The notes under the pieces: generated by a model
Database searches by the model: none
Told to the model about the DNA's origin: nothing
Seen by the model: the letters and a program-made list of their open reading frames with translations, nothing else
Shown here: piece after piece, positions 12,333-59,369 of the stretch
How positions within the stretch are numbered: position 1 is the stretch's first letter
How the letters are laid out: each line of letters starts with the position of its first letter
Origin: Nanobdellota archaeon
Lineage (GTDB): Archaea; Nanobdellota; Nanobdellia; Woesearchaeales; WJKV01
Assembly (NCBI GenBank): GCA_023133595.1
Contig: JAGLWF010000004.1
Coordinates: 42,917 to 106,916 of the forward strand
Direction of reading: 5' to 3'
DNA length: 64,000 nucleotides
Position numbers and translations under genes: made by a program

Positions 12333-13121
12333 CTACTTCTGATTTCGCACATTGGGATTTAGATAAATCCGGACACAATTCCTCTCCTGCTCAAAATCAG
12401 GCCTTTTCCAGGCAGTTCTGTATATCTTTCCGTGGGTTTTTCTGTCTGAGACAAAAAACATGAACCTTCTTCTTCCCATTGGAGTCTTTGAGACATATAT
12501 GTGGGAATAACTTTCTTCACGAGGATCATACTCCCTCCATATCTCTTGAGGATCTTTGGCAGTCTCTGAAAGGATATCTTCAATACTAGCATCAACCATT
12601 TCTAGAATTTGACGATCAAGCAATCCCCTTGCTTCTATAAGTTTCAAGGAAAGTTCTTTTACTTCTTCGTGATGAGATCTGATTTGCAGAGGCCACTTCT
12701 CTGCAGGCTGGTCTTTTATCCTGTTCCATAATGCCAATGAATAAAAATCCGAAAAAAACTCTCCTCGATCCCTGTAAGGGATATTCTCATTTTTTCCTAA
12801 TCTAAAGACTTCCTGGTCAATAGATATCATATGATTATAATATTCTCTAAATCGAGCTTCAGGCAAACTTAAATCTGCTGTGAAAGATTTTAAAAGATCG
12901 TCAGGATCTCTGTCAGGCAGAAAATGAAGACAAAAAAGTTCAACCACATTATCTATCTGCCTTTCCCTGATCTGTCGTATAAGCAAAGGATGAATTAGAA
13001 TCTCATTGTAGATGATCTTATCTTTCTCTTTGATAAGTTTATTTGTCCCTTCCTTATCAAATCCATACACGCTCCGTAGTATACCTTTAGCTTTTGCATC
13101 AATATTATCCAATTTGAGCAC
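12333..13121 (-). CDS. Uncharacterised protein paired with the MutS-like ATPase
   Basis: 262-aa ORF on the same strand, no recognised domain. Confidence 0.6.
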   Translation of the reverse strand: MLKLDNIDAKAKGILRSVYGFDKEGTNKLIKEKDKIIYNEILIHPLLIRQIRERQIDNVVELFCLHFLPDRDPDDLLKSFTADLSLPEARFREYYNHMISIDQEVFRLGKNENIPYRDRGEFFSDFYSLALWNRIKDQPAEKWPLQIRSHHEEVKELSLKLIEARGLLDRQILEMVDASIEDILSETAKDPQEIWREYDPREESYSHIYVSKTPMGRRRFMFFVSDRKTHGKIYRTAWKRPDFEQERNCVRIYLNPNVRNQK

Positions 13122-13200: not shown

Positions 13201-13248
13201 AATAATATATTATATGATATAAATCATATATATACTTTTTGGAAATAA

Positions 13249-13352
13249 GTATGGGCATAGCACCAAGCGTAGCCTTTGACTAAACGCACCAATAATATAG
13301 AATCGTTTTTATGAGCAATATTATACTCGTGCAAAGCGTGCTATGCACATAC
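13249..13352 (+). mobile_element. MITE-like palindromic element, copy 1 (104 bp)
   Basis: TIR GTATGGGCATAGCAC/GTGCTATGCACATAC; 8-bp duplication GGAAATAA at 13241-13248 and 13353-13360. Confidence 0.85.
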
Positions 13353-13383
13353 GGAAATAATTCTTTTTAAACATTCAGCTGCA

Positions 13384-16524: not shown

Positions 16525-16532
16525 AACAGCAA

Positions 16533-16636
16533 ATATATGCATAGCACCAAGCGTAGCCTTGCAATAAACAGTCCAGTTTACTAGACTCGGCTTCTAAATC
16601 GTATTTTTGATCTAGCAAAGCGTGCTATGCGTGTAC
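16533..16636 (+). mobile_element. MITE-like palindromic element, copy 2 (104 bp)
   Basis: ATATATGCATAGCAC...GTGCTATGCGTGTAC; flanks AACAGCAA (16525-16532) and AACAGCAG (16637-16644), 7/8. Confidence 0.85.
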
Positions 16637-16680
16637 AACAGCAGGCAAAGCTTAAATATCTGTCCTTCATGGATTAGATT

Positions 16681-17688
16681 ATGAAAGAGGCAATGTATTA
16701 CAACAAATTAAAAGATGATATTGTGCATTGCCAGCTATGTCCTCAGTTCTGCATGATCAAACCAGGTGAAACAGGGAAATGCAGAGTGAGAAAGAATCAA
16801 GATGGAACATTGATTTCTCTTGTGTATTCCCAACCATGTTCTGCAGCAATAGATCCGATTGAGAAGAAACCATTGTTTCATTTCTTTCCAGGTTCTAAGA
16901 CTTTTTCAATATCAACAGTCGGATGCAACTTAGACTGTAAAGCGTGCCAGAACTGGGAGATCTCGCAGGCAAAACCAGAAGATGTTCCTGCAAAAGAGAT
17001 GAAGCCAGAAGAAGTTGTTGAGGAGGCATTGAAACACAACTGCGATTCTATTGCATACACTTACATTGAACCTTCAATCTTTTACGAGTACGTCCTGGAC
17101 ATTGCAAAATTAGCCCGGCAAAAAGGATTGAAAAACATAATGGTGACAAACGGTTTCCTGAATCCAGAACCAATAAAAGAATTGTATCAATACATTGATG
17201 CTGCAAACATTGACCTTAAAGCATTTAGTGATGAGTTTTACAAAGATATGTGCAAAGGAAGACTGCAGCCTGTTCTTGATGCGATAAAGCAGATAAAACA
17301 GATGAATGTGTGGATTGAATTGACAACATTGATCATTCCAGGAAAGAATGATGATAAAATAGAAATAAGACAGATGTGTGAATGGATAAAAGCAAATGTT
17401 GGTGACGACGTGCCAATCCATTTTTCCAGGTTTTTTCCGTGCTATAAATTGTTGAATATAGAGCCAACACCGATAGACACGCTAAAAAAATGCTACGAGA
17501 TTGCAAACAAAGCTGGTCTGAAATACATCTATGTCGGCAATGTCGTGGACACGCACTTCCACCAGACAGTCTGCCCAAAATGCGGCATGGAAGTCATCAA
17601 CAGATCACATAGATACGAACTCGAGGAAGTGCATCTGGAGAACAGCTGCTGCAAATTCTGCAAGACTAAGATAGCTGGTATGTTTTAA
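16681..17688 (+). CDS. amrS: AmmeMemoRadiSam-type radical SAM protein
   Basis: CQLCPQFC...GKCRVRKN...FSISTVGCNLDCKACQNWEISQ. Confidence 0.85.
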   Translation: MKEAMYYNKLKDDIVHCQLCPQFCMIKPGETGKCRVRKNQDGTLISLVYSQPCSAAIDPIEKKPLFHFFPGSKTFSISTVGCNLDCKACQNWEISQAKPEDVPAKEMKPEEVVEEALKHNCDSIAYTYIEPSIFYEYVLDIAKLARQKGLKNIMVTNGFLNPEPIKELYQYIDAANIDLKAFSDEFYKDMCKGRLQPVLDAIKQIKQMNVWIELTTLIIPGKNDDKIEIRQMCEWIKANVGDDVPIHFSRFFPCYKLLNIEPTPIDTLKKCYEIANKAGLKYIYVGNVVDTHFHQTVCPKCGMEVINRSHRYELEEVHLENSCCKFCKTKIAGMF

Positions 17689-59081: not shown

Positions 59082-59140
59082 CAGATCACCTCGTTTGTGT
59101 TACTGTAGAAAGAACGTCTATAAAAATATTTCTATTTTTT

Positions 59141-59355
59141 GTATGTGCATAGCCATTGCTGCCAAGTGTAGCTTTCTGACTTTTTGTGCAAGATACATAG
59201 ACTCGGCTTCCAAAGCAGAAAACAATGCTAGCGAAACGCAGCAATGGCCCAAATATGCATAGCACGCTACGTTAGCTCATTAAATCTTATCATTAAACCG
59301 AGTCTATGTTACTTGATCAATTACTATAAGACTATGCTAGGTGCTATGCATATAC
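59141..59355. mobile_element. MITE-like palindromic element, dimeric copy (215 bp)
   Basis: Ends GTATGTGCATAGC/GCTATGCATATAC; 8-bp duplication TATTTTTT at 59133-59140 and 59356-59363; two inverted half-units. Confidence 0.85.
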
Positions 59356-59369
59356 TATTTTTTAAGAAA

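Follow-up and report, generated by a model that had tools for sequence, protein, structure and literature searches.

What carries a short palindrome into the intergenic gaps of an archaeal genome, and what determines where it lands? The question is raised by a 64,000-nucleotide stretch from a Nanobdellota archaeon (contig JAGLWF010000004.1, positions 42,917 to 106,916; hereafter the window), in which a first-pass annotation had described a 104-bp element with imperfect 15-bp terminal repeats, framed by a perfect 8-bp duplication, as a miniature inverted-repeat transposable element (MITE). That description holds: GGAAATAA stands on both sides, and the ends, GTATGGGCATAGCAC and GTGCTATGCACATAC, are complementary at 14 of 15 bp. 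Having followed the element through its own genome and into relatives, we report here that it inserts at a fixed position immediately upstream of predicted promoters, each consisting of a B recognition element (BRE) and a TATA box. The explanation that we regard as likely is a MITE-like hairpin mobilized in trans, whose transposase is guided, in the manner of Ty3, to just upstream of promoters bound by TBP and TFB.

Target duplications and promoter phase

The element's own genome (archaeal, 1.37 Mb, 38 contigs, about 92% complete) contains genes for TBP, archaeal MCM and L44. When it was searched with the 104-bp element as a DNA query, 41 matches were obtained at E ≤ 1e-3, and the end motif, with at most one mismatch, was found 35 + 33 times as against 1 + 1 for a reversed control pattern; the ends read GTATGTGCATAGCAC and go with 8-bp duplications. 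A first covariance model returned 79 matches, including both modules of the dimeric copies and some reverse-strand echoes. From the stretches around the matches, 72 modules were grouped into at least 53 insertions, of which 31 consist of module A alone, 19 combine A and B, and three have just B; covariance-model places outside these 53 are C38:4617-4824, C34:79258, C35:10572, C22:3827, C9:1 and C25:5. The element is multicopy and without coding capacity, being too short, at 104 or about 215 bp, to contain a transposase gene. Terminal inverted repeats are present, as is required of a MITE, and the stem is paired in most copies.

As read from the flanks, insertion of the element duplicates 8 bp. 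The flanking 8-mers are identical at all eight positions in 16 of the 53 insertions and at seven in a further 10, giving 26 clear cases, whereas the probability of at least seven matches was 0.013 when flanks were shuffled between insertions. Exact direct repeats abutting both edges number 16 at length 8 and none at lengths 6, 7, 9 or 10, and among the 26 clear cases the two flanks agree at a frequency of 0.85-1.0 across eight positions and no more, with 0.62 as the highest value at any position beyond them. A constant duplication length of this kind is another mark of MITEs. Non-autonomous transposition, proposed from the window alone, is borne out by the many dispersed copies, the inverted ends, the duplications in about half of the insertions and the fact that the sites are mostly unshared with relatives. 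The refuting condition named in the annotation, that other copies in the genome would lack the flanking 8-mers, did not hold.

The base composition of the 106 flanks contains a sharp motif. Read outward from the element, a flank passes through the 8-bp duplication, an A-rich, BRE-like stretch and TTTATATA, often followed by an ATG at +45. The outward motif TTTAWATA (at most one mismatch) starts at +15 in 26 of the 106 flanks, 15 of these being exact, and at +17 in 11; when 88 offsets were scored by a leave-one-out matrix, offset 0 ranked first in 34 of 105 flanks, the remaining one having too little length. Because circularity was to be avoided, a promoter matrix was also derived from 15 genes in the window that are free of elements (consensus GAAAGCTTTATATACT; threshold at the 99% random level). 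With this matrix 37 of the 105 flanks pass at offset 0, as compared with 5 at -1, 9 at +1, 12 at -2 and 19 at +2, and with a mean of 1.5 and a maximum of 6 elsewhere; the raised counts at -2 and +2 reflect the self-similarity of TATATA. Counted by insertion, 35 of 53 are in exact phase and 42 lie within 2 bp. The exact phase, in which the BRE/TATA box starts exactly 15 bp from the element edge, is seen in 24 of the 26 insertions with clear duplications versus 11 of the 27 others. In 13 in-phase flanks an ATG stands exactly at +45, which places the duplication at about -44 to -37 and the TATA box at about -30 to -23 relative to the start codon; the radical-SAM gene at 16681, beside the second copy of the window, is one example. 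The target is one-sided, since the motif occurs on both sides in just two of the 35 exact insertions, which rules out a two-sided palindromic target as the rule, and the element end that faces the promoter is unbiased (22 to 20). With the clear copies at one fixed position before predicted promoters, the element appears to aim for promoters and by doing so would avoid breaking genes.

The copies do lie in short intergenic gaps, often 0-30 bp off a gene end, as they would if the MITE were untargeted and selection had left only those insertions that fell between the end of a gene and the promoter that follows, where they do no harm. When flanks were joined into empty sites and insertions placed uniformly within the same gaps, however, 1.55 of 26 were expected in exact phase, and the maximum in 200000 simulations was 9, against the 24 observed. 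Offsets of 3 bp or more are, moreover, at background, and the same spacing is met again in a second genome (G127, below). The simulation rules out selective filtering alone, and we consider untargeted insertion nearly refuted and very improbable.

The window holds three copies, with features as follows.

13249 to 13352, + strand: copy 1, monomer, module A, 104 bp (from the sequence and genome search)
13241 to 13248: left target duplication of copy 1, GGAAATAA, matching the right side at 8/8
13353 to 13360: right target duplication of copy 1, GGAAATAA
13227 to 13234, - strand: predicted TATA box, directed away from copy 1 and lying 15-22 bp off its left edge (exact-phase matrix score)
12333 to 13121, - strand: open reading frame (ORF) of 262 amino acids, the next gene beyond this TATA box (at +128)
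16533 to 16636, + strand: copy 2, monomer, module A, 104 bp
16525 to 16532: left target duplication of copy 2, AACAGCAA, matching at 7/8
16637 to 16644: right target duplication of copy 2, AACAGCAG
16651 to 16658, + strand: predicted TATA box belonging to the radical-SAM gene at 16681-17688; 45 bp separate the ATG of this gene from the edge of copy 2
59141 to 59249, + strand: copy 3, module B of a 215-bp dimer
59251 to 59355, - strand: copy 3, module A of the 215-bp dimer
59133 to 59140: left target duplication of copy 3, TATTTTTT, matching at 8/8
59356 to 59363: right target duplication of copy 3, TATTTTTT
59119 to 59126, - strand: predicted TATA box facing away from copy 3, with the start of a 149-amino-acid ORF 60 bp out

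The first-pass annotation had seen the same ends and internal motifs recur at 16533 and 59141. At 16533 there is indeed a diverged 104-bp relative, but the element at 59141 is no simple copy: it is a dimer of 215 bp (59141-59355) within a single outer duplication. This dimer, the exact promoter position and a covarying hairpin common to other genomes go beyond that first reading.

The family in other genomes

As a plain DNA query the 104-bp element matched, among 40 genomes searched, its own genome only, the nearest of the others belonging to another genus; covariance models were needed to see relatives. The first of these (R1) yielded 7 genomes with the family out of 145 in the order, its own included, and a broader one (R2) 26 genomes out of 352, from 19 of 220 genera, at E ≤ 1e-5. 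Applied to a sample of 371 genomes of the phylum, R2 matched 20, all within the same order, the sample's share from outside that order being unspecified. A 19-base exact pattern was found in two unrelated bacterial contigs of the genome_contigs set, about what chance would give by our own estimate, and had no occurrence in viral_contigs. Comparing neighbouring genes between the own genome and relatives gave three clear pairs of loci (L018/L073, L027/L078 and L011/L093). The first pair shares both neighbours and differs in its duplications (GAATTGAA vs ATATTTTA), in keeping with separate insertion events at a shared promoter.

The promoter spacing could be examined anew in G127, where the hairpin lies inside composites of 261-355 bp with other, unrelated ends, GGCTCTGTCCCGAAT (for example L097:939-1293). 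Ten of the 12 unique composites have perfect 9-bp duplications, and 10 of the 12 have a side with the promoter at offset +1; by flank, offset +1 brings 11 of 23 above the promoter threshold, every other offset no more than four. Since offset +1 with a 9-bp duplication puts the TATA box as far from the duplication as offset 0 does with 8 bp, the spacing is that of the first genome, and insertions in two genomes are in phase with predicted promoters to the base. Enrichment is also found in G083 at offsets -8 to +4 (2.69 vs 0.75 per offset), in G345 (1.15 vs 0.17) and slightly in G001 (0.62 vs 0.16), the copy edges in these genomes, as in G294 and in the mixed remainder considered below, being taken from the model and not from duplications. 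As a separate observation, the 13-bp end motif of the own genome, GTATGTGCATAGC, has one exact occurrence in the examined DNA of G127 (L170:1469-1481), 22 bp from a composite, and is either a remnant or a coincidence.

Modules and the covarying hairpin

Modules A and B are homologous but differ in their stems, and B matches the A profile weakly. Of the 19 A+B insertions, 14 have their two modules on opposite strands, and because eight of these 14 have an outer duplication of 7/8 or 8/8, the dimer moves as a unit. Module B was also seen on the same strand inside A, near position 24-31 (215-bp dimers of the L006/L028/L037 type; C12:29717, C38:44239, C6:22815), so that recombination or nesting of the modules seems to take more than one form. 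Other short palindromic inserts interrupt element copies at L014:1000-1197 and L022:3546-3757, an indication that this genome harbours additional small mobile families.

In the relatives the terminal stem differs from copy to copy and stays largely complementary. Among 38 relative sequences (one on the reverse strand) double changes occur in all 15 pairs, with a covariation of 0.548 vs 0.185 ± 0.015 after shuffling, and among 59 sequences the value is 0.552 vs 0.198 ± 0.012, none of 500 shuffles being as high; since the alignments were fitted to the model, these counts are tilted in favour of the structure. The region separating the stem from the centre contains a 3-nt bulge, two pairs and a conserved GNA/GNA loop. 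Bulge-helix-bulge, K-turn and DNA mini-hairpin readings of this loop were considered as well; the covarying pairs favour an internal loop of facing strands. At the gathering score, Rfam gave no matches in the window and just tRNAs in 14 relative loci, leaving the hairpin without an Rfam family.

Such a structure might suggest a non-mobile family of structured RNA genes, conserved and covarying as these are. Target duplications, of 8 bp in the own genome and of 9 bp in G127, contradict this; together with the want of a strand preference and of an Rfam match they make it scarcely credible. The hairpins could alternatively have become functional intergenic parts (insulator, terminator or binding site) that selection keeps, mobility explaining their origin only. 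The strong covariation speaks for this, as does G083, where stems differ and are mostly complementary while the duplications have mostly decayed (8/8 in 1 of 25). Positions are, however, mostly unshared between genomes, just the three pairs of loci above sharing a neighbour, and the element has no overall strand bias with respect to tandem genes (37 to 40 among the 77 of 123 copies in tandem context); template-switch correction of palindromes could, in addition, yield covariation without function. We hold present-day function to be rather unlikely as the explanation, though less so than RNA genes. A function of single-stranded RNA in transcripts was rejected on the overall strand balance. In G345, unlike elsewhere, all seven tandem cases (among copies L138-L146) are antisense to the neighbouring genes.

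The putative transposase and comparison with known systems

Returning to a trans-mobilized MITE guided to promoters, we propose that the hairpin, some 104 bp long as a monomer and some 215 bp as a dimer, would be moved by a transposase encoded elsewhere, and that this enzyme would be guided by the promoter complex itself, TBP and TFB on BRE/TATA, as yeast Ty3 is guided by TBP-Brf1. An element guided in this way could land in a compact genome without breaking genes or promoters, and the covarying hairpin would probably serve its recognition or its maintenance. Beside this, the own genome has a TBP gene of 107 amino acids with a single TBP-repeat match (L047:4551-4874, contig C23). Two repeats are usual in TBPs; the protein may truly be of half size, or else the gene may be truncated or frameshifted.

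Several points weigh against this explanation. The promoters are predictions from sequence only. The Pfam models PF12762 (IS1595-type), PF01609 (DDE_Tnp_1), PF00872 (mutator/IS256-type) and PF13610 (IS6/IS240-type), all four of which matched control genomes, gave no hits in the own genome (completeness about 92%), nor was a long end-to-end element with the same ends, such as a full-length insertion sequence, seen there. The annotation had argued from a window without a transposase to mobilization in trans; that none was found fits, but trans action is unproven thereby. Among other genomes, the peak in G083 lies at -4/-3 and not at 0, the multicopy genome G294 has no promoter enrichment (0.23 vs 0.36 per offset), and the mixed remainder is weakly enriched (1.15 vs 0.8).

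Solitary ends in the own genome adjoin ordinary genes or remnants. One left end of about 36 bp (L053:1683-1720, at C2:21982), which looks like a deletion remnant, adjoins a gene for what we take to be a tRNA-pseudouridine-synthase-like protein. In G127 the four ORFs beside solitary GGCTCTGTCC ends that were compared with Pfam encode a PKD-domain protein, a methyltransferase, a Fic protein and a protein without Pfam match. Element copies also stand at contig ends (C9:1-104, C25:5-110, C34:10-113), where repeats may have interrupted the assembly, and a gap there could conceal an autonomous copy.

A further difficulty is that the data would fit tethering by proteins and direct recognition of DNA alike. 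In the latter case targeting would be real, and the transposase itself would read BRE/TATA DNA, by its sequence or bendability, independently of transcription factors. A phase exact to the base and a strong motif agree with this, and the evidence is all of the sequence kind. The strand-transfer complex of DDE transposases is symmetric, however, and the motif is one-sided in most insertions, with 2 of 35 having it on both sides; the ATG at +45 shows, too, that the targets are real promoters rather than stray TATA sequences. We regard direct recognition as possible and clearly the less probable of the two, and we infer only that a transposase acts in trans and that either the TBP/TFB complex or BRE/TATA DNA directs it. 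A wider proposition, on which we are evenly divided, is that archaeal transposons dock on the TBP/TFB promoter complex and insert just upstream, as a prokaryotic counterpart of Ty3 acting across lineages with different ends and duplication lengths; their cargo would be the covarying hairpin family, a promoter-flanking parasite that may be exapted.

In the literature no archaeal transposable element phased to promoters was found by title and abstract, subscription journals being mostly outside the coverage, and novelty is unproven. Integration guided by promoter complexes is best known from yeast retrotransposons. If it does occur here, it would offer a minimal system for learning how integrases read transcription complexes, archaeal TBP/TFB being simpler than the eukaryotic relative, and would explain the persistence of mobile DNA in very compact genomes. 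Each insertion would also mark a promoter, providing an independent promoter map for organisms known mostly from assemblies.

Like the repetitive extragenic palindromic (REP) sequences and interspersed mosaic elements (BIMEs) of bacteria, the copies are dispersed extragenic palindromes forming imperfect hairpins, single and composite. REPs are shorter and tied to HUH-type enzymes that leave no target duplication; unlike REPs and BIMEs, as these are generally understood, the element has clear 8-9-bp duplications. Archaeal and bacterial MITEs, in the available sections of PMC10969869 and PMC3852290, are likewise short, gene-less and multicopy, with inverted ends and target duplications; in some of their families no autonomous partner has been seen. 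Unlike MITEs as described there, the present family has a base-exact site upstream of promoters, dimers, and stems that covary between copies and genomes. The Correia elements of Neisseria are also MITEs often found immediately upstream of genes, but they carry promoters of their own, according to the part of PMC10969869 available, whereas here the gene's promoter lies outside the element at a fixed spacing. Ty3, as the available portion of PMC8632968 has it, is a long terminal repeat retrotransposon with 5-bp duplications that integrates downstream of TFIIIB at RNA polymerase III genes, 2-3 bp upstream of the start site. Here, in contrast, a DNA hairpin with 8-bp duplications inserts upstream of the BRE/TATA of protein genes, and tethering is something that we infer. 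The minimal targeting factors of Ty3 are TBP and Brf1, a relative of TFIIB, and its target promoter is TBP-bound (PMC8632968, same portion); like the archaeal element, it integrates at a set distance from a promoter, give or take a few bp, and does genes no harm.
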